Source: Flavobacterium gilvum (GTDB lineage: Bacteria > Bacteroidota > Bacteroidia > Flavobacteriales > Flavobacteriaceae). Taken from it: a stretch of 64,000 nt of DNA. The position numbers were made by a program, and so were the translations under genes. This document shows, one piece after another, positions 777 to 41,075 of the stretch. Where the stretch lies: NCBI RefSeq assembly GCF_001761465.1, contig NZ_CP017479.1, positions 1,178,001-1,242,000 on the forward strand. Reading direction: 5' to 3'. The notes beneath the pieces are model-generated. The model had not been told where the DNA came from. It worked only from the letters and a program-made list of their open reading frames with translations, and ran no database searches. The first letter of the stretch is position 1. Every line of letters starts with the position of its first letter.

Positions 777-2246
777 ATGATGAAAAATTTCAAATGGTTG
801 CTTCTGGCTTCTTTAAGCTTTGTGGCATGTAATAATAACGATGACGATTCGGCTCCGGCAGAAGTTCCTATCACTCCAGGGTCTGCATCTTTTGCAAAAT
901 ATGTGGCGTTGGGAGATTCTTTTGCAGCTGGATATAGTGATGGAGCTCTTTTTAAAGCAGGTCAGCAAAATTCGTATGTAAATATATTGGCACAACAATT
1001 TATGCCTGCTGGAGGAGTCGCAATTACCACGCCATTAATGTCTGATAATATTGGGGGATTGTTGTTGGGGGGTAATGTGATCGCTGGGCCGCGTTTGTAT
1101 TTCAATGGAAAAGCTCCAGTATCGGTTACGGGAACTCCAACAACCGAAGTGACCAATCATTTAACCGGGACTTTTAATAATCTAGGAATTCCGGGCGCCA
1201 AAAGTTATCATTTGGTAGCGGCAGGGTATGGGAATACTGCCGGGGTGGCTTCTGGGAAAGCAAATCCGTATTTTGCACGTTTTTCAAGCTCGCCATCAAC
1301 AACAGTTTTGGCAGATGCAATGGCGCAGTCTCCAAGCTTCTTTACTTTGTTTATAGGAGGAAATGATGTTCTGGCTTATGCTACATCAGGAGGAGTAGGT
1401 GTAAATCAAACCGGAAATATGGATCCTTCGACTTATGGCTCAAATGATATTACCGATCCTACCGTTTTTGCAAATGTTTATGGCGCTTTGGCGACCAGTT
1501 TAACAGCCAATGGAGCAAAAGGTGCAGTCGCTAATTTGCCTTATGTGACGACTTTGCCTTATTTTACAACGGTACCATACAATCCCGTTCCGCTTGATGC
1601 TGCGACTGCGAATCAGTTGAATGCTGGATATGCACAATACAATGGTGGTTTACAACAAATGGTTGCCAATAAATTACTGACTGCAGATGAGGCGGCCAGA
1701 AGAACGATAAAATTTGCTGCGGGTAATAATGCGGTGGTTATTGTTGATAGTTATTTGACAAACTTGTCAGCTTTTGGCCTGCCTTCCTATAGACAAGTAA
1801 CAAAAGAAGATTTGGTTGTGTTAACTGCAAGAACATTTATCGGTACAACTGTCGGTGGTGATCCAACAAAAATAAATGGGGTCTCTGTTCCGTTGGCAGA
1901 TCAATGGGTGCTTTCTAAGGATGAGGTCAAAGAAGTTCAGGTGGCGACAGACGCTTATAATAAAACAATTGTTTCGGTTGCAGATTCAAAAGGATTGGCA
2001 ATGGTTGACACAAAATTGGCGATGACGCAATTGTCAACTTCCGGAGTTCGGTTTGGGAATTTTCATATGACAGCTGCTTATGTAACTGGAGGAGCTTTTT
2101 CCTTAGATGGTGTTCATCCGAGTCCAAGAGGATATGCTTATATAGCAAATCTTTTTGTGAGTGCCATTAATGCAAAATATGGTTCAACTTTAAGAACAAC
2201 AGATTTGTCGCAGTACCAAATTCAGTATCCGGCGGTCATACAATAA
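777..2246 (+). CDS. SGNH/GDSL-family lipolytic lipoprotein
   Basis: This 489-residue protein has a lipoprotein signal peptide (hydrophobic stretch, then SFVAC with the lipidated Cys at 18, followed by an Asn/Asp-rich tether). Block I of the SGNH hydrolase family is ALGDSFAAG with nucleophile Ser48; block II glycine lies in NLGIPGAKS; block III is GGND; block V is DGVHPS with Asp444 and His447. All four catalytic or oxyanion elements are therefore present, and an esterase or lipase activity at the cell surface or periplasm is inferred. It follows a TonB-dependent receptor gene closely, so the pair may release and import a shared ligand. A strong terminator follows. Confidence 0.88.
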   Translation: MMKNFKWLLLASLSFVACNNNDDDSAPAEVPITPGSASFAKYVALGDSFAAGYSDGALFKAGQQNSYVNILAQQFMPAGGVAITTPLMSDNIGGLLLGGNVIAGPRLYFNGKAPVSVTGTPTTEVTNHLTGTFNNLGIPGAKSYHLVAAGYGNTAGVASGKANPYFARFSSSPSTTVLADAMAQSPSFFTLFIGGNDVLAYATSGGVGVNQTGNMDPSTYGSNDITDPTVFANVYGALATSLTANGAKGAVANLPYVTTLPYFTTVPYNPVPLDAATANQLNAGYAQYNGGLQQMVANKLLTADEAARRTIKFAAGNNAVVIVDSYLTNLSAFGLPSYRQVTKEDLVVLTARTFIGTTVGGDPTKINGVSVPLADQWVLSKDEVKEVQVATDAYNKTIVSVADSKGLAMVDTKLAMTQLSTSGVRFGNFHMTAAYVTGGAFSLDGVHPSPRGYAYIANLFVSAINAKYGSTLRTTDLSQYQIQYPAVIQ

Positions 2247-2267
2247 GCTTGATTTTATAATATCGAT

Positions 2268-2302
2268 AAAACCACCCGTTTATGACGTGGTGGTTTTTTT
2301 TA
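2268..2302 (+). terminator. Rho-independent terminator after the GDSL gene
   Basis: The arm AAAACCACC at 2268-2276 pairs perfectly with GGTGGTTTT at 2289-2297, followed by a T run. It closes the receptor-lipoprotein unit. Confidence 0.85.
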
Positions 2303-2384
2303 GTAAAGAAAGCAGTGTTTTAATAGTTTAAAACTGCCTTGTAATCAATTCAATAAAAAAATAGGTTTTTTTATAAAAAAAATA

Positions 2385-2414
2385 TTGATTTTATATTTTA
2401 AAAAATTATCTTTG
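2385..2414 (+). promoter_or_regulatory. Bacteroidota-type promoter of atpDC
   Basis: A TTG at 2385-2387 is followed after 19 bp by TATCTTTG at 2407-2414, matching the TTG/TAnnTTTG promoter pattern of Bacteroidota. Transcription would start near 2420, giving an untranslated leader of about 80 nt before atpD. Confidence 0.65.
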
Positions 2415-2496
2415 CGCTCTGAAAAAAGTATCCATTTCGATGAGTTTCGGTGGGCTGTATTTCATGAACCTAAATAGCTATTTAATAAATACATAA

Positions 2497-4008
<1,512 letters not shown>

Positions 4009-13480: not shown

Positions 13481-13981
13481 CTTTTTCTTCCTGCTTTTAT
13501 TTGATTCAAAAATAGTATTTTTTGGCGGTATTCAATCGATTTTATCCAAAAGGCGATGAAGTTGAGTATTTATTAAGAACGTTAATCATTGAATAATGAG
13601 CTTTAACCATTTTTATGACTGTAAATAGGTGGTATTGAGGTGGTTTAATGTTTGTTAAAAGTAGTAAAAATTGTATGTGTTAGTGTTGTTTATAGTTTTT
13701 AAGCGATAAAAAAGTATGGATTATCGAAAAGGGAAATGTTTACAAATCAATGCAACTTATGTTTCATAATTTTACAGATTAATTGCTTGTTATACAAAAT
13801 ATTGGTTTTGATTAAGAATGAGATCTTGTGACGACTTGCTGAATGTTAAAAATGATTAATCATGAAAATAAAAATACTTTTTTGGGAGACTTTTTTCAAT
13901 GATTGTATAAAATATTAATATTCGGTTTTGTCATAAGGGACTTACATTTTGGGTTATTTTTTCAGAATAAAAAATAAAAAC
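13481..13981. other. 500-bp AT-rich spacer upstream of the first T9SS giant
   Basis: I see no gene, RNA or strong hairpin. It separates the divergent recX gene and the large secreted-protein gene and should hold both promoters. A partial -7-like TACATTTTG lies near 13944, too close to the consensus limit to call. Confidence 0.5.
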
Positions 13982-16900: not shown

Positions 16901-19792
16901 ATAAACAGTGTTGCCCAAACTGCAGTTGCTGGAGTAGTTGCTGATGGTTTTGGAAATGCGAGTTTTAATACCGGAGCACTGTCTTTTGCTAATAATGGTC
17001 AAACATTAACAATTACAGGAATTACAAATACAAGTGTTACTCCAAATTGTTCAGCAAGTTCTCCACAAAGTGTTACCTTAAGTGTTTTGCCTAGTTTGCC
17101 TGCAAGTGTAAGTATTGCAGCTTCTCCATCGGCTGTGATTTGTGCGGGAACATCGGTGACTTTTACGGCAACACCAACCAATGAGGGAACAACACCGGTG
17201 TATCAATGGCAACTAAATGGGGCAAATGTCGGAACTAACTCGGTTACTTATACCAATTCTACATTAGTGGATGGAGGTATAGTGACCTGTGTGATGACTT
17301 CGAATGCGACTCCCTGTCTGACAGGAAGTCCAGCTACTTCAAATATCATAACGATGACGGTCAATCCGAATTTGCCTGCGAGTGTGACTATTACAGCTTC
17401 TCCTTCGGGTGCGATTTGTGCGGGTACACCAGTTACTTTTACAGCCATGCCAACCAATGGAGGAATAACACCTGTGTATCAGTGGAGATTGAATGGAACA
17501 GATGTAGGAACCAATTCGGCAACTTATAATAATTCTGGTTTAGTCAATGGAGATGTGGTGACTTGCGTGATGACTTCGAATGCTGTTTGTACGACAGGCA
17601 CACCTGCTACTTCAAACAGTCTAACAATCATAGTAAATGATAAACCAACCATTGCTTCTATTAGTACTCCGGCTGCATTGTGTGAGGGAACTTCTTTGAA
17701 CGCACCGACACCAACAGTTAATAATAATGGCACAATACTTACGGTATTTGGTTGGGAATTGGAAACAAATGCTAGTGGAATATTTGCGAGTTTAAGTTTA
17801 CCATATACTGTTGCATTAGCTGATAATGGCAAGAATCTTAGATATACTGCGAGAAATAGTTGTGGTATGACAAGCAGTAATCCTGTTGTGGTAACAGTTA
17901 ATGCTAAGCCAGAAGAACCAATAGCGACACCTACGCAGCCTACTTGTCTTGTTTCGACGGGGACTATTACAGTAACATCGCCATTAGGATCAGGTCTTAG
18001 TTACAGTATAAATGGTATTGATTATAGTAATACTTCTGGGATTTTTAATAATGTGGCTGCTGGATCTTATTATGTAAAAGCCCAAAATAGTTCCGGTTGC
18101 ATTTCATTGGATTCAAATCAAGTTCTGTTGAATGCGATAAAGACAACTACTTGGAACGGCTCTGGTTGGGATAATGGCGTTCCGAATGATGGTATAAAAA
18201 GAGTTATTTTTTCTGGAAATGCAATAATAACCGCCCAAATAAGCGCTTGCTCATGCGTAATAAGCCCTAACGTAAATGTTGTTGTGGGAGTTCCTGGTGG
18301 AGTAAATGCAGATGCCATTGTTAAATTAGAGAATGGTTTGGATGTTCAAGGTAATGGTACATTAACTTTTGAAAATAATGCGAGTTTGATTCAGGTGAAT
18401 GAGGCTGTAAATACAGGAAAAATTATTTACAAGCGTATTTCGACTCCAATGAAGAATTTTGATTTTACCTATTGGTGCTCTCCTGTGGAGGATCAGGTTT
18501 TGTATGATTTGTCCCCAAATACGTTATGGGATAAGTATTATAGTTTTAACGCTGGTAATTGGGTAATTGAACCAGTATCTAATACAATGAATCCGGCAGG
18601 AAAAGGGTTTGCAATTCGTGTTCCAAAACCCCCATTTTGGGATGATCCTAATGCTCCTACGTATGCACAGCCAGTTCAGTTTGTTGGTGTTCCATACAAT
18701 GGCAATAAAACAATTAAAGCTCAAGGACTTAATATGGATAATTTAATAGGTAATCCGTACCCTTCAGCAATAGATGCAAAAAAGTTTATGGAGGACAATT
18801 CGACGCTGATAAGCGGTGCTTTGCAGTTTTGGACTCACAACACGGCCGTCACACCAAGTGGTGCTTTTTTTGTTTATGATGACGGAGATTATGCACTCTT
18901 TAACTTAACCGGAGGGGCAAAGGCTACAACAGGAGGAAAAATTCCAGATGGAAAAATAGCAGCCGGGCAAGCCTTTTTTGTGACCAGCAATAGTGGTAGT
19001 GATTTTGTTTTTACTAATGCTATGCGTAACACCCCAATTGTTTTGCCTTCTGGATCTAACAGTACATTTTTCAGAATGTCCCAAACCAAGAAAATGACAA
19101 CTATTGAGGAAAATAGGGTTTGGCTGGATTTAACCAATTCCGGAGGGGCATTTAAGCAATTGTTAGTGGGATACATTGCCGGAGCCACCAACGAATTTGA
19201 TAATTTATACGATGCCCTTAGTATGGATTCAAATACGTATGTTGACTTTTATAGTATAAATAACGGTAATAATCTATCAATCCAAGGACGTGCTTTGCCT
19301 TTTGAAAATACAGATGAGATACCTCTTGGCTACAGAAGCACAATTCAGGGAAATTTTACTATTGGTATTGAAAAAACAGATGGAGTCTTAGTTAATCAGG
19401 ATATCTTTATTGAAGACAAAGTGACAGCAACGATTACAAATCTTAAAAACGGGCCTTATACTTTTTCTACTACCAGTGGAGTTTTTAATAATCGTTTTGT
19501 GTTGAAATTTACAGCTGGCAGTATTTCAAAAATGAGTACCAAAGTCACTGCTGATACAGTAGATAAGACAGTCCTTGTATCGGTTAAAGATAAACAGATC
19601 AATATCAATTCGCTTGAAGATGTAATAGATAAAGTGATGATTTATGATTTAAAAGCAAGTTTGCTTTATGAAAAAGAAAATGTGAACAGTAATGTGTTTA
19701 GCGTTTCTAATTTTAATTCTGCTGAGCAATTTTTAATTGTGCAAGTCTTGCTTAAAAACGGTCAGTGGGTTACTAAGGAAATTATTTTTTAG
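13982..19792 (+). CDS. Giant multidomain T9SS type C cargo protein (paralog 1)
   Basis: The ATG at 13982 begins a clear signal peptide (FFSIVLLLLFSTSMVFGQ); an upstream in-frame start would spoil it. The 1936-residue protein has a unique N-terminal domain (to about 210), a PKD-like repeat, four fibronectin III repeats (about 310-680, each with YYYRV), several Ig/PKD-like repeats including a near-duplicate pair around 1035-1220, a SprB-like unit (TGTITVTSPLGSGLSYSING), then a 550-residue C-terminal module shared with the next two genes. It ends in a type C T9SS sorting signal (VMIYDLKASLLYE...GQWVTKEIIF). It is probably exported by T9SS and surface-attached; the adhesive role is inferred. Confidence 0.9.
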   Translation: MTKFLRPFKFFSIVLLLLFSTSMVFGQTPAIGDYQSAPSTATTPGAWTSLSSWLYYNGPATGWLTPTAAQGYPGEKDNGIDEAVTILAGHTIRIGDGSGANFSSQPMGKITIIGKLYLAGNINNPIPRFELDAQWVYVEPNVGLIEFNNKVNLWLISSLYPGTGVFTVNKDESIGYKSIIGDCSNNQDINFGPDATSYCAGKKFTFDDLMTSGGSLNAAIGSIAAVCQGSSVSLSGSYTGLVGTPAVYGWHIVDSFGNTQDFIGKNVSFPNAIGTSYTIKLTVSTVYNVTPFTNSETVTVAVNAPPTAPVATAGTALSCTSVRANWQAVSGATSYVLDVATNSGFTSMVSTVNVGNVLSKDITGLTSGTTYYYRVRAFNGTCNSPNSNVITVVAPSVPAAPANFNYGAIRCTQVDLSWNAVTGANTYTVESSTDSGFSLGNTVAVTGLTSTSYTVKNLTKGTNYYFKVTAVNSCSSTNSATIGAVLTLNTPVQPTNVESNTVLCAQFNVTWTEASGAVDYTVEVSTDPAFPSAGLKSFEHVLASPYTVTGLSPSKVYYYRVIAVNGCGSGDPVNGPDYITTIASEPSVPNLEAPIVGCNQLTVNWTASPLAVDYTVELATNPGFPSGLISTVPNITGTSHTFTNLSPGATYYYRVSARNGCGSSAYGTPNPASLTTGTVATTPTISWKSSTISGSTTNICQTDMITSSASSGILWSTGETTQSITPPVSGNYTVQVVNPGGCSSAVSQPATVVVQGLPTAVAGGSETICSNTSATISSASASNGTIQWTASGGAGTLINRTTITPIYRPLLGGPAETVLLTMTVTGINGCSSVVATASHTVNVLGDAPTATAGGSQNICVGGSATVSGASATNDSAISWTHNGAGTLTNETTLAPTYTSAVADAGLPITLTMTVTGSPSCNPPYEVTAIYTVFVNPLTTLISALQSAPVCDSSAATINLTGLLANSTSTINYAINSVAQTAVAGVVADGFGNASFNTGALSFANNGQTLTITGITNTSVTPNCSASSPQSVTLSVLPSLPASVSIAASPSAVICAGTSVTFTATPTNEGTTPVYQWQLNGANVGTNSVTYTNSTLVDGGIVTCVMTSNATPCLTGSPATSNIITMTVNPNLPASVTITASPSGAICAGTPVTFTAMPTNGGITPVYQWRLNGTDVGTNSATYNNSGLVNGDVVTCVMTSNAVCTTGTPATSNSLTIIVNDKPTIASISTPAALCEGTSLNAPTPTVNNNGTILTVFGWELETNASGIFASLSLPYTVALADNGKNLRYTARNSCGMTSSNPVVVTVNAKPEEPIATPTQPTCLVSTGTITVTSPLGSGLSYSINGIDYSNTSGIFNNVAAGSYYVKAQNSSGCISLDSNQVLLNAIKTTTWNGSGWDNGVPNDGIKRVIFSGNAIITAQISACSCVISPNVNVVVGVPGGVNADAIVKLENGLDVQGNGTLTFENNASLIQVNEAVNTGKIIYKRISTPMKNFDFTYWCSPVEDQVLYDLSPNTLWDKYYSFNAGNWVIEPVSNTMNPAGKGFAIRVPKPPFWDDPNAPTYAQPVQFVGVPYNGNKTIKAQGLNMDNLIGNPYPSAIDAKKFMEDNSTLISGALQFWTHNTAVTPSGAFFVYDDGDYALFNLTGGAKATTGGKIPDGKIAAGQAFFVTSNSGSDFVFTNAMRNTPIVLPSGSNSTFFRMSQTKKMTTIEENRVWLDLTNSGGAFKQLLVGYIAGATNEFDNLYDALSMDSNTYVDFYSINNGNNLSIQGRALPFENTDEIPLGYRSTIQGNFTIGIEKTDGVLVNQDIFIEDKVTATITNLKNGPYTFSTTSGVFNNRFVLKFTAGSISKMSTKVTADTVDKTVLVSVKDKQININSLEDVIDKVMIYDLKASLLYEKENVNSNVFSVSNFNSAEQFLIVQVLLKNGQWVTKEIIF

Positions 19793-19817
19793 GACATCTA
19801 AAATTTTTTATTAATAA

Positions 19818-19847
19818 AAATCCTTTCTGGGTAACCGGAAGGGATTT
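19818..19847 (+). terminator. Hairpin after paralog 1
   Basis: AAATCCTTTCTGG at 19818-19830 pairs with CCGGAAGGGATTT at 19835-19847 with two G-T pairs and a GTAA loop. The T tract is weak (TTTCTGTGTTTT), so termination may be partial. Confidence 0.65.
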
Positions 19848-20170
19848 CTGTGTTTTAATACTTGTTAAATTATTAAAATAAGGTTGTTTAACTGATATTT
19901 AGATTGTTTGTCAAGCTTAACGAAAGAAATAATTTTTAATTTTTAATTTTGATCATTATATATCTGTTTTGCTTTAGCATTTACCCTTTTTTTAGAATGC
20001 AGCAATTGTAGATTTTTTTTTAATAATAAAATAGCCCCAAGCGACATGAATCAACTTTTCCTCTTTTAATCCCACAAGTATAAGCTTAAGTACCTAGCAA
20101 CTACCTTTTTCCGGAAAGAGTAGTCAGGCTGATGTTTGTCTTAAATTAAATTCTTAAAACCGCCCCACTT

Positions 20171-20248
20171 ATGAGTAGAATTTTACTTTCAATTTTTTTG
20201 TTTTTTGCAATAGCCCCAAATAATATGAATAAACTTTACCTCTTTTAA
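20171..20248 (+). other. Mini-frame in tandem unit 1 (25 aa)
   Basis: It reads MSRILLSIFLFFAIAP, then NNMNKLYLF and a stop. The first 12 residues match the signal peptide of the downstream 1578-residue gene (MNRILLSIFLCLFF), while the tail crosses into unit 2. It could be a truncated duplicate, a leader peptide or a small secreted peptide; translation is unproven. Confidence 0.35.
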
Positions 20249-20366
20249 TTCCAAAGTATCAGCCCGAGTATCCCCTAATAACTGTCTTTTTCAGGAAAGA
20301 GCAGCCAGGCTAATATTTGTCTCAAAATAAAATCCAATAAATTAAATTCTAAAAACCACCCCACAT

Positions 20367-20450
20367 ATGGATAGAATTTTACTTTCAGTTTTTTTATGTT
20401 TATTTTTTGTAATAGCCCCAGATATTATGAGTAGACTTTCCGTTTTCTAA
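20367..20450 (+). other. Mini-frame in tandem unit 2 (27 aa)
   Basis: It reads MDRILLSVFLCLFFVIAP, then DIMSRLSVF and a stop. Compared with unit 1 the reading frame and the motif IAPxxMxxLxxF are kept despite base changes. Whether it is translated is unknown. Confidence 0.35.
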
Positions 20451-20567
20451 CTCCACAAGTATAAGCCAAAGTACCTAATAACTGTCTTTTTCAGGAAAGA
20501 ACAGCTAGGCTAATATTTGTCTCAAAATAAAAATCCAATAGATTAAATTCAAAAAACAGCCCCATTT

Positions 20568-23500
20568 ATGAATAGAATTTTACTTTCAATTTTTTTATGT
20601 TTATTTTTTGTAAATACCGCTTTTAGTGCAACAATTACTAGTACAGGAAATGGTAATTGGGGTGCTGCATCAACTTGGAGTACAATAAGTAGAACTGGTA
20701 CGATTTCAACAACAAGTAGTTCGAAAATTGTTACTGGTGTTGGGACATCATTTACAACAGAGTTGGCAGTTGGCAGTATTTTGTATAAAGATGATGGTAC
20801 TACTGTAATTGGTACTGTTTCTTCCATTACCGATAACACGCATTTAACATTAGTTGCAAATACGGCTACTGTTTTTTCTTCTCAAAGTTATATGGCAAAG
20901 ATTGTACCTACAACTATTGACGATGTAGTGATTTCATCTGGAACGACCGTGACTTTGGATACAACTACTGCTTCGGCTAACAGCATAACTGTTGATGGAT
21001 TATTGGAAATGGTTTTTAAAATTGATATTACTCTAACTACACAATTGATAGTTGTTAGTTCTACTGGGCAAATTAAGTTTGACCATAATACACTTAAATT
21101 GCCTTCGGGTGCTGCCATATATCTTGAAAATGGTTCTAATAGTTTGAGTGGTTCGTGTAATAACAATGACGAATTAGATCTAGGCGGTGTACATTATGCT
21201 GTTTGTACAGGAGGTGGTGCAATATATTCCTTTGCTGAAGTTGAAGCGGCTGGTGGTGTTAATAATATTTCGGCAGGTTCTATAGAAGAATCACAAACGG
21301 TTTGTTATGGATTTGTTCCATCTACTTTGAGTTCAACAAGAGACGGTGCGGGTTCAGGGACAATATCATACGAATGGCAAACAAATGAAAGTGGTAGCTA
21401 TGTTGATATTCCAGGCGCTACAGGAAAGGATTATTCTCCACCGGCTCTGACTGTAAGTGCAAGTTATCGACGAAGAACGGTTTCTGTAATTGGAGGCAAA
21501 ACTTTTAAATCAGCATATACAACACCAGTAACCATTACAGTTAATCCGAAAACTGTAATCACTGCGCCAGCAACTGGTTCTGTTTGTAGTGGTTTTTCTT
21601 ATTCAAGTGGAGCAATCACCTCGACTGGAACAAAATTTGACTGGACTCGTGCAGTGGTAACAGGAATCAGCAATACAGCAGGTTCAGGTACCGGGGTTAA
21701 CAATGCTTCAGGAGTTACCGAAACCTTAATCAATACAACAACTTCTGCTATTACGGTTACTTATATTTTAACTCCAAGATTGGCTTCAGGTTGTCCCGGG
21801 AGTCCGTTCAATTTAGATGTTACGGTAAATCCGAAACCTGTAATCACTGCGCCAGCAACCGGTTCGGCTTGTAGCGGGGTTTCTTATTCTAGTGGAGCAA
21901 TCACTTCCACTGGAACAACATTTGATTGGACTCGAGCAGCAGTGACGGGCATTAGCAATACAGCAGGTTCAGCTACTGGAGTTGCCAATGCTTCAGGAAT
22001 CACAGAAACCTTGATCAATACAACAACTTCTGCTATTACGGTTACTTATGTTTTAACTCCAAAATTGGTTTCAGGTTGTCCCGGGAGTCCGTTCAATTTA
22101 GATGTTACGGTAAATCCTAGACCTGTAATCACTGCGCCAGCAACTAGTTCTGTTTGTAGCGGGGTTTCTTATTCTAGTGGAGCAATCACTTCCACGGGAA
22201 CAACATTTGATTGGACTCGCGCAGCAGTGACCGGCATTAGCAATTCAGCAGGTTCGGCTACAGAAGTTGCCAATGCTACAGGAATCACAGAAACTTTGAT
22301 TAATACAACAACTTCAGCTATTACTGTTACTTATATTTTGACTCCAAAATTGGCTTCAGGTTGTCCCGGAAGTCCGTTCAATTTGGTTGTTACTGTAAAT
22401 CCAACTCCAGTAGCTCCCGTTTTAAGTAATATCACTTTGGGATGTAATCAAACTACTGCTACAGAAACTTGGACAGCAATTTCAGGTATTACAAATTACC
22501 GATTTGATGTTTCTACAGATCCTTTATTTGGGACTTATCTCACGGGTTATAATAATCTTTCAGTTTCTGCAGCAGCTACTTCATTAGCCATAAACGGACT
22601 GTCTCCAGGTGTAACGTATTATGTTAGAGCAAGATCACAAAGTGGTTGTGGGACAAGTGTCAATTCTTCTGTAGTAACAATTACGGTAAATTCTTCCCCA
22701 ATAAAACCAATAGCATCAGCTACCAAACAGCCTACTTGTGTAGTTTCAACAGGAACTATTACAGTAACATCACCAACTGGAGCAGGACTTAGTTATAGTA
22801 TTGATGGAACTAATTATAGTAATACATCTGGAATATTTAATAGTGTGCCAGCTGGAGATTATTATGTAACAGCCAAAAATGCTTCAGGTTGCGTTTCGGT
22901 AGCTTCAGATAAAATTTCATTAAATGTTGCAGGGACAACTACTTGGAGTGGTTCCAGTTGGGATAATGGTGTTCCGGATGCTACCAAAAGAGCTGTTTTT
23001 GCGGGTAATGTTACCATAACGGCTGCTTTAAATGCCTGTTCATGTCAAATTAATTCTGGTGTAGCAGTTGGCGTAGCTTCTGGTGTAGTTTTGACAATTG
23101 AAAACGGTTTGGATGTTTTGAGCACTGGGACATTAACCTTTGAAAACAATGCAAGTTTGATTCAGGTTAATGATGCTGCAATAAATAATGGGAAAATTAT
23201 ATACAAGCGCATTACCAGTCCGATGAAAAATTTTGATTTTACGTATTGGTCTTCTCCAGTAAAAGATCAGGTGTTGAATGTTTTGTCACCTAATACTCTT
23301 TGGGATAAATATTATAGTTTTAACAATGGCAATTGGAAGGTTGAAGGGGTAACCAACAAGATGAATCCTGCTGGAAAAGGATTTATTATCCGCGTGCCAA
23401 AACCTGGAGTCGTTTACCCTAATGGAGAAAAATGGTATACAGCTACCTATGCTCAGCCGGTTCAATTTGAGGGAATTCCAAATAATGGTTCCATTTCAAT

Positions 23501-25304
23501 TGCGACAGAGGGAACTGGAATGGATAATTTAATAGGGAATCCTTATCCTTCTGCCATAGATGCCGATGCGTTTATCAATGCTAACGCGTCAGTCATAGGT
23601 GGGGCACTGTATTTTTGGACACATAACACTGCTATTACGCAAAGTGGCTCGTTTTATGTTTATAATTCCAATGATTATGCAACTTATAACTTGACAGGAG
23701 GAGCAGGAACTAGAGGCAATTTTATTGATGCGAATAATAATGGTGTTCTCGATGCTGGTGAAACTATAGATGATAATAATAAACCGAATGGTAAAATTGC
23801 GGCTGGACAGTCCTTTTTTGTGATCAGCAAAGCGTCTGGTGATTTTGTGTTTAAGAATTCGATGCGTAATTCTACGGCTGGATCGAATAGTCAGTTTTTG
23901 AGAATGGCTCAAACCAAAAAAACGGTTGCTGTCGAAAAGAGTAGAGTTTGGCTGAATTTGTCCAATTCTGATGGGGCTTTCAAACAATTGTTGGTGGGCT
24001 ATATTACAGGTGCTACCAATGAGATGGATAAATTGTATGACGGCATTAGTTTTGATGGGAATGATTATGTTGATTTTTATAGTGTTAACAAAGAAGATAA
24101 ACTTACGATACAAGGGCGTGCTTTGCCATTTGATAAAGGGGATAAGGTGCCTTTGGGTTACAAAACTGCAATACAGGGAACTTTTAGGATAAGTATCGAC
24201 AAAGTAGACGGAGTTTTGACTAATCAAACTGTCTTTCTTGAAGATAATGTAACCAAAGCTGTTCATAATCTAAATGATGGTCCTTATTCATTTACTACGG
24301 CCAAAGGAACTTTTGATAATCGCTTTACTTTGGTTTATGTTGATAAAAATGCTCCGATTGTAATTGAGCCACCGGTTGTTGTGAATCCACCAATTGTAAC
24401 CGAACCACCAGTAGCTGTAGAACCTCCGGTTGTCGTGAATCCGCCAATTGTAACCGAGCCTCCTGTAGCGGTAGAACCACCTGTTGTTGTCAATCCGCCA
24501 ATTGTAACCGAGCCTCCTGTAGCGGTAGAACCACCTGTTGTTGTCAATCCGCCAATTGTAACGGAACCACCGGTAGCAGTAGAACCACCGGTTGTTGTGA
24601 ATCCGCCAATTGTAACCGAACCGCCTGTAGCTGTAGTGCCACCAGTTGTCGTGAATCCTCCAATTGTAACTGAGCCACCGGTAGCAGTAGAACCACCGGT
24701 TGTCGTGAATCCTCCAATTGTAGCAGAACCACCTGTAGCTGTAGATCCTCCAGTTGTCGTGAATCCTCCAATTGTAACAGAACCTCCTGTAGCTGTAGAA
24801 CCTCCGGTTGTCGTGAATCCGCCAATTGTAATCGAACCACCAGTGGCTGTAGAACCTCCGGTTGTCGTGAATCCGCCAATTGTAACCGAACCGCCAGTTG
24901 CTGTAGAACCACCAGTTGTTGTGAATCCTCCAATTGTGACCGAACCGCCAGTGGCTGTAGAACCACCAGTTGTTGTGAATCCACCAATTGTGACCGAACC
25001 GCCAGTAGTTGTCGTGCCACCAGTTGAGAGTTTGGATCCAACTATTGAAAAACCAACTGAGAGTAAAAATAAATCCCTTGTTGTTTCTGTAAAGAATCAT
25101 CAAATAAAAATCAACTCTTTTGATAAAACGATGGGCACTGTCTTGTTGTATGATTTGAGAGGAAGGAAGATTTTTGAAAACACTAATGTGAAAAGTAATG
25201 AATATGTGATTCAGGGATTGAATTCCAGCGACCAGTTTTTAATTGTTATGATTCAATTGACTGACGGGAAATGGGTCACAAAAGAGATTATTTTTAAGAA
25301 CTAA
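20568..25304 (+). CDS. Large multidomain T9SS type C cargo protein (paralog 2) with Pro-rich repeat stalk
   Basis: The 1578-residue protein has a signal peptide (MNRILLSIFLCLFFVNTAFSA), an N-terminal region resembling a G8-type secreted domain (GNGNWGAASTWS), and three near-identical 95-residue repeats at about 325-610 (VITAPATGSVCSGVSYSSGA). A fibronectin-like repeat and a SprB-like unit follow. The C-terminal module (about 790-1265) is shared with both neighbours. Then come twelve 18-residue Pro/Val repeats (VVVNPPIVTEPPVAVEPP; residues 1270-1485) and a type C T9SS sorting signal. The Pro-rich part resembles a rigid stalk before the anchor. Surface location is inferred from the sorting signal; its ligand is unknown. 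Confidence 0.9.
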   Translation: MNRILLSIFLCLFFVNTAFSATITSTGNGNWGAASTWSTISRTGTISTTSSSKIVTGVGTSFTTELAVGSILYKDDGTTVIGTVSSITDNTHLTLVANTATVFSSQSYMAKIVPTTIDDVVISSGTTVTLDTTTASANSITVDGLLEMVFKIDITLTTQLIVVSSTGQIKFDHNTLKLPSGAAIYLENGSNSLSGSCNNNDELDLGGVHYAVCTGGGAIYSFAEVEAAGGVNNISAGSIEESQTVCYGFVPSTLSSTRDGAGSGTISYEWQTNESGSYVDIPGATGKDYSPPALTVSASYRRRTVSVIGGKTFKSAYTTPVTITVNPKTVITAPATGSVCSGFSYSSGAITSTGTKFDWTRAVVTGISNTAGSGTGVNNASGVTETLINTTTSAITVTYILTPRLASGCPGSPFNLDVTVNPKPVITAPATGSACSGVSYSSGAITSTGTTFDWTRAAVTGISNTAGSATGVANASGITETLINTTTSAITVTYVLTPKLVSGCPGSPFNLDVTVNPRPVITAPATSSVCSGVSYSSGAITSTGTTFDWTRAAVTGISNSAGSATEVANATGITETLINTTTSAITVTYILTPKLASGCPGSPFNLVVTVNPTPVAPVLSNITLGCNQTTATETWTAISGITNYRFDVSTDPLFGTYLTGYNNLSVSAAATSLAINGLSPGVTYYVRARSQSGCGTSVNSSVVTITVNSSPIKPIASATKQPTCVVSTGTITVTSPTGAGLSYSIDGTNYSNTSGIFNSVPAGDYYVTAKNASGCVSVASDKISLNVAGTTTWSGSSWDNGVPDATKRAVFAGNVTITAALNACSCQINSGVAVGVASGVVLTIENGLDVLSTGTLTFENNASLIQVNDAAINNGKIIYKRITSPMKNFDFTYWSSPVKDQVLNVLSPNTLWDKYYSFNNGNWKVEGVTNKMNPAGKGFIIRVPKPGVVYPNGEKWYTATYAQPVQFEGIPNNGSISIATEGTGMDNLIGNPYPSAIDADAFINANASVIGGALYFWTHNTAITQSGSFYVYNSNDYATYNLTGGAGTRGNFIDANNNGVLDAGETIDDNNKPNGKIAAGQSFFVISKASGDFVFKNSMRNSTAGSNSQFLRMAQTKKTVAVEKSRVWLNLSNSDGAFKQLLVGYITGATNEMDKLYDGISFDGNDYVDFYSVNKEDKLTIQGRALPFDKGDKVPLGYKTAIQGTFRISIDKVDGVLTNQTVFLEDNVTKAVHNLNDGPYSFTTAKGTFDNRFTLVYVDKNAPIVIEPPVVVNPPIVTEPPVAVEPPVVVNPPIVTEPPVAVEPPVVVNPPIVTEPPVAVEPPVVVNPPIVTEPPVAVEPPVVVNPPIVTEPPVAVVPPVVVNPPIVTEPPVAVEPPVVVNPPIVAEPPVAVDPPVVVNPPIVTEPPVAVEPPVVVNPPIVIEPPVAVEPPVVVNPPIVTEPPVAVEPPVVVNPPIVTEPPVAVEPPVVVNPPIVTEPPVVVVPPVESLDPTIEKPTESKNKSLVVSVKNHQIKINSFDKTMGTVLLYDLRGRKIFENTNVKSNEYVIQGLNSSDQFLIVMIQLTDGKWVTKEIIFKN
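24375..25022 (+). repeat. Twelve tandem 54-bp units (Pro/Val-rich coding repeat)
   Basis: Each unit encodes VVVNPPIVTEPPVAVEPP with small variations (unit 5 ends AVVPP, unit 7 has AEPPVAVDPP, unit 9 has VIEPP, unit 12 ends VVVVPP). Codon choice varies between units (CCA/CCG/CCT) while the protein stays constant. Unit length is divisible by three, so copy-number changes keep the frame. Confidence 0.95.
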
Positions 25305-31283: not shown

Positions 31284-33965
31284 ATGAAGAGATTATTATT
31301 TTTCCTGATAGTATTTGTTTTGAATTTCGTTGGGTTTTCACAGGTTAAATCATCCTGGAAATCCATAAATCCTACTCAAAAGGTACTTGTTTCAAAACAG
31401 GAAAATGATTTGGGATTGAATCATCAGCTTTTGTTCTCCTTGAATGAATCCGAATTCAGGCAGTCGCTGACAGCACTTCAGTCCAAAACTGAAACAACCA
31501 TAGCTGTTGCAATTCCTAATGGAGAAGGAAAAACAGAAGAGTTTGCTGTTGTGGAATCTTCCAATTTTGCACCCGAATTACAAGCGAAATATCCAGAAAT
31601 TAGATCCTATTCTGGGACAGGGATTACTGATCCAAAAGCATCAATTAGTTTTAGTGTGTCTCCAGACGGTGTTTCTACAATGGTTTTGAGAGGAGATAGC
31701 GATTCGGAATTTATTGAACGGGCAGATAACGATAAATCGATATATGTTCTTTCCAGTTCGAAGAAAAGAGAAAAGGGAATTTTGCCATTGACTTGTAAAA
31801 CGGTTGATGTGGTGTTGAATAAAGATTTAGTGAAGAAAACTGCCGAAATCAAGGCCACTAATGGAGTTTTTAAAACTTTGAGACTAGCTCTGTCTTGTAC
31901 AGGTGAATATACTCAGTTTTTTGGAGGAACAGTAAATAATGCCCTGGCAGCAATGAATGCCACAATGACACGCGTTAACGGTATCTTTAATAGAGACCTA
32001 GCTACTAAACTTGAAATTATTTCCAACAATTCGATTATAATATACACAGATGCCGCTACCGACCCCTATTCTGATGCGAAGGCTGGAGTTGCCGGTGCAT
32101 GGAACACAGAATTGCAGAAAAATTTAACTTCGGTTATTGGGGATGCAAATTATGATATTGGGCATTTGTTTGGTGCGTCTGGAGGTGGAGGAGATGCTGG
32201 TTGTATAGGGTGTGTTTGTGTTAATCCAACGACTGCGGAACCAAAAGGAAAAGGAAGCGGTTTTACTTCACCATCCAATGGTACGCCAAAGGGAGATCTT
32301 TTTGATATCGATTTTGTAGCTCACGAAATGGGGCATCAATTGGGAGCCAATCATACTTTTTCCTATGATATTGAAGGTTCTGGCGTAAGTGTAGAGCCGG
32401 GAAGCGGTTCTACTATTATGGGTTATGCTGGAATAACCGATTATGATGTTCAGGATTATTCGGATGATTATTTTGCCTATGCCAGCATCGTGCAGATACA
32501 GAGTAATTTAAGTACAAAAACCTGTCCCGTCAGTACCACATTTCTCAATCAAAAACCTGTGGTCAATGCGGGATTGGATTATACAATTCCTAAAAGTACC
32601 GCTTTTGTTTTGAATGGTACTGCTACCGATCCTGATGGTAATACAATGACATATTGTTGGGAACAAAATGATTCTGCGAGTTCGCCCGAAAGTGACTCCA
32701 AGAGTATCGCTTATGCGACAAAAACCAATGGGCCTAACTTCAGGTCGTTTTTACCTGTAAATGTTACCAATCGTTATTTTCCGGCTTTTGCTAAAGTTTT
32801 GGGTGGTCAGTTGGTTTCTACCTGGGAGGCAGTTCCTTCGGTGGCAAGAAATTTGAGTTTTGCATTTACCGTCCGTGACAATGCGGCTTTGGGTTCAGGA
32901 CAAACGAATTCAGATGTGATGATACTCACTGTTGACGCAACTAAAGGGCCATTTGCAATAACATCGCAAAATGTCGCTGATTCCAGTTGGGTTTTGGGTT
33001 CTTCGCAAACTATTACTTGGAGTGTAAATGGATCTGATGTTTTGGCGGGGGCATCCAATGTGAATATAAAAATGTCTACAGATGGTGGTTTGACTTTTCC
33101 GATTGTTTTGGCACCTAATACACCAAATGATGGTTCTGAAGTTGTTACAGCTCCTTTAACCGCAGCCAAGAATTGCAGGATTTTGATTGAGCCAACAGCA
33201 AATGTTTTTTATGCCATAAATAGTAAGCCTTTTGCTTTGGGATATTCGATTTCGACTACGTGTAATACGGCTGCCTATTCAACAGGATTGCCTGCAGCAA
33301 TACCCGAATCAACAACTTATGCAGAGAGAACTATTGATGTGCCTGCAACTACTTCGGAAATTAGTGATGTTAATGTTAATGTGAAATTTACCCATACATA
33401 TATTTCAGATGTTCAAATTGAGTTGGTAAGCCCAAAAGGGACTGTTGTGAAATTGTTTGACAAGGCCTGCGGGTCGACAAACAGTAGTTTAGACTTGACT
33501 TATGACGATACGGGAGGAGCTTTAACCTGCGGTATGACTGCGAACCAAACAGTGACCCCTGCCGGAAATTTGTCTGCTTTTAATGGCGAAAATCCAAGTG
33601 GAACCTGGATATTAAGGTTTAGGGATAACGGCGTTGGCGATTCGGGAACACTCAATTCGGCTTCTGTAACGATATGCTCGAGTTCATATACTACTTTGGC
33701 AACTAAGCATTTTGAAACCAATGATTTTGTGTTGTACCCAAATCCGAACAAAGGGAATTTTAATATTCGTTTTTCAAGTTCCAATACGACCGATATTCAG
33801 GTTTTGGTGACCGATTTGTCGGGAAGAAAGATTTATGATAAAAAATTTGCAAACACAGGCGATTTCAATCAGAATATTCAGTTGAAGAATGCTGCAGCGG
33901 GAACTTATATTGTAACGGTTGTAGACGGTGATCGAAAAGAAGTTTCTAAAATTATTGTGAAATAG
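31284..33965 (+). CDS. Secreted reprolysin-like zinc metallopeptidase with T9SS type A sorting domain
   Basis: The 893-residue protein has a signal peptide (MKRLLFFLIVFVLNFVGFSQ), a propeptide-like region, and a metzincin catalytic domain with HEMGHQLGANH at residues 347-357 (three zinc histidines and the catalytic Glu348) and a downstream Met-turn (TIMGYAG). An Ig-like region follows, then a proprotein-convertase P domain at about 665-800 (SDVQIELVSPKGT, GTWILRFRDNG), then a type A T9SS sorting domain (FVLYPNPNKGNFNI...GTYIVTVVDGD). It is therefore expected to be an extracellular protease exported by T9SS. The gene stands alone, with its own promoter and terminator. Confidence 0.95.
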   Translation: MKRLLFFLIVFVLNFVGFSQVKSSWKSINPTQKVLVSKQENDLGLNHQLLFSLNESEFRQSLTALQSKTETTIAVAIPNGEGKTEEFAVVESSNFAPELQAKYPEIRSYSGTGITDPKASISFSVSPDGVSTMVLRGDSDSEFIERADNDKSIYVLSSSKKREKGILPLTCKTVDVVLNKDLVKKTAEIKATNGVFKTLRLALSCTGEYTQFFGGTVNNALAAMNATMTRVNGIFNRDLATKLEIISNNSIIIYTDAATDPYSDAKAGVAGAWNTELQKNLTSVIGDANYDIGHLFGASGGGGDAGCIGCVCVNPTTAEPKGKGSGFTSPSNGTPKGDLFDIDFVAHEMGHQLGANHTFSYDIEGSGVSVEPGSGSTIMGYAGITDYDVQDYSDDYFAYASIVQIQSNLSTKTCPVSTTFLNQKPVVNAGLDYTIPKSTAFVLNGTATDPDGNTMTYCWEQNDSASSPESDSKSIAYATKTNGPNFRSFLPVNVTNRYFPAFAKVLGGQLVSTWEAVPSVARNLSFAFTVRDNAALGSGQTNSDVMILTVDATKGPFAITSQNVADSSWVLGSSQTITWSVNGSDVLAGASNVNIKMSTDGGLTFPIVLAPNTPNDGSEVVTAPLTAAKNCRILIEPTANVFYAINSKPFALGYSISTTCNTAAYSTGLPAAIPESTTYAERTIDVPATTSEISDVNVNVKFTHTYISDVQIELVSPKGTVVKLFDKACGSTNSSLDLTYDDTGGALTCGMTANQTVTPAGNLSAFNGENPSGTWILRFRDNGVGDSGTLNSASVTICSSSYTTLATKHFETNDFVLYPNPNKGNFNIRFSSSNTTDIQVLVTDLSGRKIYDKKFANTGDFNQNIQLKNAAAGTYIVTVVDGDRKEVSKIIVK

Positions 33966-40460: not shown

Positions 40461-41075
40461 ATGAAAAATTTAATTATAGTATTAAGTGCAGTTTTTGCAT
40501 TTACTACCGTAGCATCAGCACAAATAGCTACAAAAGAAGAAGAACAAAAAATTGTGTATGTGTGTCCAATGCATCCAGACGAAACGAATCTAAGCTCCGG
40601 AAAATGTCCAAAATGCGGAATGGAATTGAAAAAAGTTACCGAAAAAATACCGACCTATGCTACAAAAGGAAGTCAGCCTCAAAGCAAAACGATAATAAAA
40701 TATGTCTGTCCAATGGACAGCACAACTTCGGATAAACCTGGAAAATGCTCCAAATGTGCAATGGCAATGGTAAAAACTACTGAAAAAGTAGACACACACG
40801 CTCAAAAAGGAAGCCAACCTAAGACTAAAACTGTGATAAAATATGTTTGTCAAGTAGACGGTACAACTTCAGCTACTGCAGGAAAATGTTCTAAATGCGG
40901 AACTGAAATGGTAAAAATTACCGAAAAAGTGGACTTACACCCGCTAAAAGGTAGCCAGCCTAAAACTAAAACTGTGACAAAATATGTTTGTCCAATGGAC
41001 GGCACAACTGCCGACACCAAAGGGGAATGCCCTAAATGTGGGATGGCAATGATTCAAAAAGAAAACAACAAATAA
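40461..41075 (+). CDS. Periplasmic protein with four heavy-metal-binding (HMBD) repeats
   Basis: The 204-residue protein has a signal peptide (MKNLIIVLSAVFAFTTVASA) and four repeats of the heavy-metal-binding domain: YVCPMHPDE...GKCPKCGMELK (about 33-58), YVCPMDSTT...GKCSKCAMAM, YVCQVDGTT...GKCSKCGTEM and YVCPMDGTT...GECPKCGMAM. Repeat 3 lacks the usual Met-Pro (CQVD for CPMD). The same domain occurs singly in the two adaptor proteins downstream. It is probably a periplasmic copper or silver sponge or chaperone delivering metal to the efflux pump; this is inferred. Confidence 0.88.
   Translation: MKNLIIVLSAVFAFTTVASAQIATKEEEQKIVYVCPMHPDETNLSSGKCPKCGMELKKVTEKIPTYATKGSQPQSKTIIKYVCPMDSTTSDKPGKCSKCAMAMVKTTEKVDTHAQKGSQPKTKTVIKYVCQVDGTTSATAGKCSKCGTEMVKITEKVDLHPLKGSQPKTKTVTKYVCPMDGTTADTKGECPKCGMAMIQKENNK

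Follow-up and report, generated by a model that had tools for sequence, protein, structure and literature searches.

Leader-peptide attenuators place the stop codon of a short upstream open reading frame (uORF) next to a switchable stem, and tandem riboswitches and other repeated cis-RNA modules place several copies of an RNA module one after another upstream of a gene. For Flavobacterium psychrophilum, a published account records 64 structured 5′ transcribed leaders, with leader lengths that have a mean of 65 nt and a median of 24 nt (PMC9723704). A study of Flavobacterium johnsoniae describes a species without Shine-Dalgarno sites, in which initiation benefits from A at −3 and −6, AUG is avoided around start codons, leaders average 33 nt, and promoters follow the consensus TAHHTTTG with 4–5 nt to the transcript start (PMC6847099). 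In the Bacteroidota, export-sensing arrest uORFs (uA_NSP-stop and uDF_NAP-stop) lie upstream of secretion-related genes (PMC10987492).

We analysed a window of 64,000 nucleotides from Flavobacterium gilvum (positions below are those of the window), in which three direct units, each with a start codon and signal-peptide codons, precede a gene for a 1578-aa T9SS substrate. Like the structured Flavobacterium leaders, the locus would have a structured leader ahead of a protein gene, without an Rfam match, but here it is a tandem triplicate with a start and signal-peptide codons, set against a median leader of 24 nt in F. psychrophilum. The units resemble leader-peptide attenuators in having a short uORF that ends 4 nt before a predicted bipartite stem, but they are tandem, their peptide residues are not conserved, and we found no terminator-like site on the + strand within the array. 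As in tandem riboswitches, copies of one putative RNA module lie in series before one gene; unlike these, the array matches no known aptamer family and has a start codon in each copy. Finally, as with the arrest uORFs, a uORF, here one with a signal-sequence-like start, lies upstream of a secretion-related gene, whereas the short frames of the array (mini-frames, below) have no proline before the stop, and the target is a secreted substrate, not secretion machinery (compared with PMC10987492). The titles and abstract openings listed by our searches, in a collection with few subscription journals, held no description of a tandem 5′-module array like this one.

Three tandem units before a T9SS gene

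The array and its boundaries can be read directly from the sequence. The 775-bp spacer between two T9SS genes (19793–20567) houses the three units, the last of which extends into the gene.

20030–20208, + strand: unit 1, 179 bp
20209–20410, + strand: unit 2, 202 bp
20411–20613, + strand: unit 3, 203 bp, the only unit continuous with the 1578-aa gene
20568–25304, + strand: gene for the 1578-aa T9SS type C substrate, with a G8 domain, three PKD_5 stretches, proline-rich repeats and a C-terminal sorting signal

The original prediction had described three tandem units of 180–200 bp, of which only the third enters a giant T9SS gene, and this description was borne out. Pairwise identity over ungapped columns was 83.7% for units 1 and 2, 79.3% for units 1 and 3, and 88.9% for units 2 and 3. 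Local alignment of unit 1 with unit 3 scored 142 (maximum of 32 among 1000 shuffles), and Tandem Repeats Finder reported 20142–20613 with a period of 201 and a score of 675. The gene starts within unit 3, at 20568, with MNRILLSIFLCLFFV..., so that the unit end at 20613 falls within its first codons. The same order is repeated in each unit: a 7-codon uORF, 4 nt, a predicted bipartite RNA hairpin, a linker, an ATG and signal-peptide codons.

The left flank of the array reads ...AAAATA/GCCCC and the right end ...GTAAATA/CCGC, AAATA being common to both in T-rich surroundings; the internal junctions read GCAATA/GCCCC and GTAATA/GCCCC. This shared AAATA at the block ends points to illegitimate recombination, which we infer to be the most likely mechanism of duplication. 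The array would stem from the 5′ module of the gene itself (7-codon uORF, bipartite hairpin, linker, start codon and first ~15 signal-peptide codons), duplicated in tandem step by step until there were three copies. By the pairwise identities, unit 1 would be the earliest to diverge, which suggests that it split off first and that units 2 and 3 parted later.

Conservation of the ATG and signal-peptide codons was not clearly higher than in the rest of the unit under machine alignment (P = 0.57, 0.06 and 0.09). With the 6-nt gap of unit 1 shifted by hand, the region counts had given lower values (P = 0.37, 0.017 and 0.077), so the apparent constraint depends on gap placement. We also sought an older internal repeat between the start-like motif at the unit start (A) and the true start region (B). 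Six of the nine pairings reached P < 0.05, but none of these involved A1, the one copy of the motif that does not lie behind a junction (P = 0.53, 0.80 and 0.44 against the true start regions), and therefore no such repeat is claimed.

At residues 1525–1576, the 1578-aa protein matched NF033708 (T9SS sorting signal type C) with 44.9 bits, above the cutoff of 40, and its N-terminus, MNRILLSIFLCLFFVNTAFS, has by eye the pattern expected of a Sec signal peptide. Between the body of the protein and its sorting domain lie proline-rich repeats (24369–25026; 54 bp, 12.2 copies, 88% matches), overlain by long antisense frames. Three 285-bp repeats with 90% matches (21535–22402) mark an in-gene expansion in the PKD_5 part, downstream of the array. 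This is one of three T9SS genes that lie at 13949–33965 among what we take, from their appearance, to be biotin genes; the first and third scored 38 and 40 with the type C model (cutoff 40). Elsewhere in the window, 40461–41075 encodes a protein with a signal-like start and four CxxxxxxxxxxxxGxCxKCxx repeats, metal-binding-like by eye.

Encoded peptides and RNA pairing

The original prediction had also placed mini-frames of 25 and 27 aa in units 1 and 2, and both are present, as is a shorter uORF near the beginning of every unit.

20171–20248, + strand: mini-frame 1, 25 aa, MSRILLSIFLFFAIAPNNMNKLYLF and stop; unit 1 start and signal-peptide codons fused in frame to the unit 2 uORF
20367–20450, + strand: mini-frame 2, 27 aa, MDRILLSVFLCLFFVIAPDIMSRLSVF and stop; unit 2 start and signal-peptide codons fused in frame to the unit 3 uORF
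20046–20069, + strand: uORF of unit 1, 7 codons, MNQLFLF and stop; stop 4 nt before hairpin 1
20225–20248, + strand: uORF of unit 2, 7 codons, MNKLYLF and stop; stop 4 nt before hairpin 2; doubles as the tail of mini-frame 1
20427–20450, + strand: uORF of unit 3, 7 codons, MSRLSVF and stop; stop 4 nt before hairpin 3; doubles as the tail of mini-frame 2

The ending that the mini-frames were said to share, IAPxxMxxLxxF and a stop, is there, but it consists of the first ~40 bp of the following unit and so reflects unit homology, not a feature of the peptide. Its homologue at 20030–20069 precedes the signal-peptide part of unit 1, with no signal-peptide frame before it. This origin of the tail, together with its copy ahead of unit 1, shows the mini-frames to be junction chimeras of the tandem duplication, in which the signal-peptide codons of one unit read in frame into the next.

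Between the two mini-frames there were three synonymous and ten nonsynonymous changes (pS 0.189, pN 0.161, pN/pS 0.85), small numbers obtained with the unit 1 gap placed by hand as two whole codons. In a selection-free simulation with substitutions only, the start, open frame and stop survived together in 63% of runs at 8% divergence, 39% at 16% and 30% at 20%. The reading frame is indeed kept despite the base differences, as had been pointed out, but open frames often survive without selection, and its retention is thus weak evidence. The suggestion that the mini-frames are small exported peptides is not supported, given their length of 25–27 aa, an amino-acid conservation that does not exceed DNA identity, and the survival of the frame in 39% of selection-free runs at 16% divergence.

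The distance from the uORF stop to the 5′ hairpin arm is exactly 4 nt in all three units, the adjoining of uORF and stem seen in leader-peptide attenuators. Because of this geometry, a ribosome terminating at the uORF stop would open the outer helix. The base at −3 is A for the uORFs of units 2 and 3 and G for that of unit 1; the true start at 20568 has T at −3, an unfavourable context.

20074–20139, + strand: predicted bipartite RNA hairpin 1, inner helix 20101–20124
20253–20320, + strand: predicted bipartite RNA hairpin 2, inner helix 20282–20305
20455–20520, + strand: predicted bipartite RNA hairpin 3, inner helix 20482–20505

The same bipartite stem is possible over 66–68 nt in each unit, its 3′ end lying 31–47 nt from the ATG. 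In unit 3 letters, the outer helix pairs ACAAGUAU.AGCC with GGCU.AUAUUUGU and the inner helix pairs CUGUCUUU with AAAG.ACAG. Of the 60 cells, one was set aside for a gap, and all 59 that could be scored held standard pairs; sliding the partner by 1–3 columns lowered pairing to 41–48% of cells. Two inner pairs had changed on both sides (A-U/G-C and C-G/U-G/U-A), and two outer pairs showed a one-sided wobble change to G-U. In the 106 columns of the hairpin region, the consensus fold had an energy of −13.5 (mean −5.5 in 1000 column shuffles; z = −3.57, P = 0.003), and structure conservation reached an index of 0.98 (mean 0.47; P = 0.001); the same test on the whole unit gave a weaker signal (P = 0.18 and 0.04, respectively). 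The covariation comes from three sequences only, and its observed score was reached in 119 of 500 trials when the 3′ letters were shuffled among them. Template switching at imperfect palindromes can also yield compensatory changes.

Folded singly, unit 3 scored well (z = −2.69), and units 1 and 2 weakly (z = −0.84 and −0.68). Variable columns made up 6 of 41 in stems and 9 of 24 in loops, a difference that was not significant (P = 0.065). Compared with the ~42 bp that open the unit, the hairpin showed less divergence between units 1 and 3 (P = 0.048) and units 2 and 3 (P = 0.038), but not between units 1 and 2 (P = 0.74). An Rfam scan of 19700–20800 returned six matches at E up to 5, all under gathering scores and without Flavo-1 among them. 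The pairing available in all three units and the codon comparison point to an RNA fold that is better preserved than the peptide, and so favour RNA over an encoded product. The proposal that units 1 and 2 are leader elements tuning translation fares accordingly in two ways: the RNA form of it is possible, with pairing available in all three units, but the peptide form is disfavoured by the pN/pS of 0.85.

Distribution in the genome and the genus

In the F. gilvum genome (one contig, 4,402,594 bp), a DNA search with the unit gave three matches, all within the array, and covariance model R1 found the three units only at E < 8, the next match having E = 8.2. The original prediction had proposed looking for copies of the unit in other Flavobacterium genomes; none was found among the 397 others sampled from a larger group (398 with its own). 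DNA matches in 105 of these 397 were short, and those listed outside its own genome all fell within query positions 112–232 (window 20511–20631), the region of AT-rich linker, start and signal-peptide codons. The covariance model gave three weak matches in the 397 (E = 0.005–0.03, not above chance for that number of genomes, under stricter filters that lose weak matches) and none at E up to 1 in 16 Flavobacterium loci (L033–L048). With the whole array as query against 199 relatives, matches at E up to 1e-6 were confined to its own genome and G028 (locus L004). Another 328 genomes, drawn with some overlap with the first sample, produced four short matches.

We read three of the short matches in context, together with the leader of L014. 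Those in L004 and L078, the latter from the 328-genome draw, were unrelated gene starts, and that in L018 fell on antisense leader-peptide genes. The L018 locus (genome G103, 951–2939, minus strand) carries seven complete tandem small genes and one cut off at the end. Six encode 50–53 aa and one 70 aa with an upstream start; the family reads MKKLKLKNLKVxKL...GG..., has double-glycine-like leaders and ends in Cys-(His/Asn)-x-Cys.

At the syntenic locus in Flavobacterium sp. A45 (L034), the gene's relative, whose best segment is 67% identical, has a spacer of 273 nt without the array. The frames that follow this relative keep the same order at similar sizes (828/829, 369, 173/145, 315/314 and 893/895 aa). 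None of the 300-bp stretches before eight gene starts from six fetched sources matched unit 3 better than shuffled sequence at P = 0.05 (the lowest value, 0.06, came from L006), and those before the two neighbouring T9SS genes did not exceed shuffles either (P = 0.70 and 0.10). We also searched for upstream copies of a gene's own start among 170 ATG-started frames of at least 200 aa in the fetched loci and the window, where the highest shuffled score was 40. Three scored above it: this gene (126), position 5854 of L049 (62) and window position 41036 (41); the latter two lie inside repeats of coding sequence and were rejected as further arrays. A lineage-specific array is the best reading of this distribution.

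Several signal-bearing genes are preceded, at 112–235 bp, by a direct repeat AACGA (or ATCGA) with the second copy ~20 nt on, a spacing that recalls LytTR-type operators. The repeat occurs upstream of large secreted-protein genes in L061, L062 and L064, and looser forms occur in L006, L039, L042, L044, L047, L048 and L075 and before window position 31284. A C-terminal pattern for picking T9SS genes gave three frames only and was replaced by a filter on size and signal-like start. Among the 53 large frames that have a signal-like start and passed this filter, six were preceded by the AACGA pattern; of 200 other frames six were too, and five of those six also had a signal-like start. In this count the pattern was absent from the 40–260 bp before the 1578-aa gene start.

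Transcription and rival explanations

Two features ahead of the array bear on its transcription.

19818–19847, + strand: 13-pair stem, terminator-like, downstream of the preceding T9SS gene, z = −4.55
19944–19951, + strand: candidate −7 promoter box TAATTTTG, upstream of the array; no other TAnnTTTG occurs on the + strand of the 775-bp spacer

Given the terminator-like stem after the upstream gene, the array gene is likely its own transcript. If the single canonical box at 19944 is used, the 4–5 nt spacing would put the transcript start near 19956 and give a leader of ~610 nt; one such box in AT-rich DNA is, by rough uncomputed estimate, little more than chance would give. The minimum-energy fold of 19956–20640 pairs unit 1 with unit 2, and only unit 3 keeps its own hairpin. 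Mean pair probabilities for the outer and inner helices in this fold were 0.00 and 0.23 in unit 1, 0.00 and 0.05 in unit 2, and 0.21 and 0.65 in unit 3, and the start codon at 20568 had two of its bases paired.

On balance, we lean towards regarding the triplicated start module as a structured long leader whose upstream copies are transcribed and act, if at all, as RNA. The upstream copies would most likely be transcribed as part of an unusually long leader carrying all three units, whose paired elements and decoy start codons would lower or condition initiation at the last, real start. Such a leader may tune the expression or translation of this one gene; the transcription start, the fold in vivo and the effect on translation are what we infer. 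The main rival, to which we give a real but distinctly smaller chance, is that units 1 and 2 are an inert spacer left by past recombination, a neutral duplication in decay that merely moves the promoter away. Neutral decay fits a peptide that is not conserved, frames that often stay open without selection, an array found in 0 of the 397 other genomes, units 1 and 2 that fold weakly when single, and a start region not clearly constrained in the machine alignment. It fits less well with pairing in every scorable cell, two compensatory pairs and a consensus fold at P = 0.003, or with a hairpin that, in two of the three comparisons, had diverged less than the ~42 bp at the beginning of the unit. 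The readings weighed here overlap in part, and their probabilities need not sum to one.

Were each unit instead to carry a promoter, the transcript that matters would begin in unit 3, with a normal leader of ~45 nt. Short leaders are usual in both species studied (average 33 nt in F. johnsoniae, PMC6847099; median 24 nt in F. psychrophilum, PMC9723704), and TAATATTTG stands at 20311 in unit 2 and 20511 in unit 3, a typical distance from the ATG. However, its TA-to-TTTG spacing is 3, not 2, the unit 1 counterpart reads TGATGTTTG, and the AT-rich −18 and −28 motifs described for F. johnsoniae promoters (PMC6847099) are not evident upstream by eye. Tandem promoters thus seem unlikely, the more so as the TAATATTTG bases also form the 3′ arm of the outer helix. 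We think it quite unlikely that the mini-frames are arrest or attenuation leader peptides that sense export and control the giant gene. Their N-termini are signal-peptide-like, and a uORF stop beside a hairpin arm, here 4 nt ahead of it in three of three units, is the geometry that attenuators use; against this stand the pN/pS of 0.85 and the length of the ribosome tunnel, within which a peptide of 25–27 aa stays until termination, too short to exit beforehand. Known export-sensing uORFs do carry signal sequences, but the reported Bacteroidota uORF clusters end in NSP- or NAP-stop (PMC10987492), and the mini-frames end in LYLF-stop and LSVF-stop. The original prediction had also raised spare 5′ ends exchanged with the neighbouring gene by recombination, and such exchange, there or with other loci, might vary the exported protein. 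The units do have a start and signal-peptide codons in common, and recombination between them at matching positions keeps the long frame intact, but this idea is very improbable: the unit was found in this genome only within the array, and the neighbouring T9SS genes have different signal peptides and leaders that do not match (P = 0.70 and 0.10).

As for the structured leader, an extension of it that we hold only as a long shot is that the units are tandem, self-contained RNA control modules, each equipped with a start codon and a 7-codon uORF next to a bipartite stem. Recombination between units could raise or lower their number without breaking the 1578-aa frame, which would make the array an evolvable rheostat for a secreted protein in a phylum that lacks Shine-Dalgarno sites. 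The full-leader fold pairs units 1 and 2 and leaves unit 3 its own hairpin, so the output could depend on whether the copy number is odd or even. If the RNA reading is true, the locus would offer a compact natural test of start selection in the Bacteroidota, where Shine-Dalgarno sites are missing and stray AUGs are kept away from start codons. One spacer would then hold three near-identical start regions, a single one of which leads to protein, in a leader whose unit number is able to vary without harm to the coding frame. If the array is neutral, it would document, in well-preserved form, a tandem duplication at a single gene.
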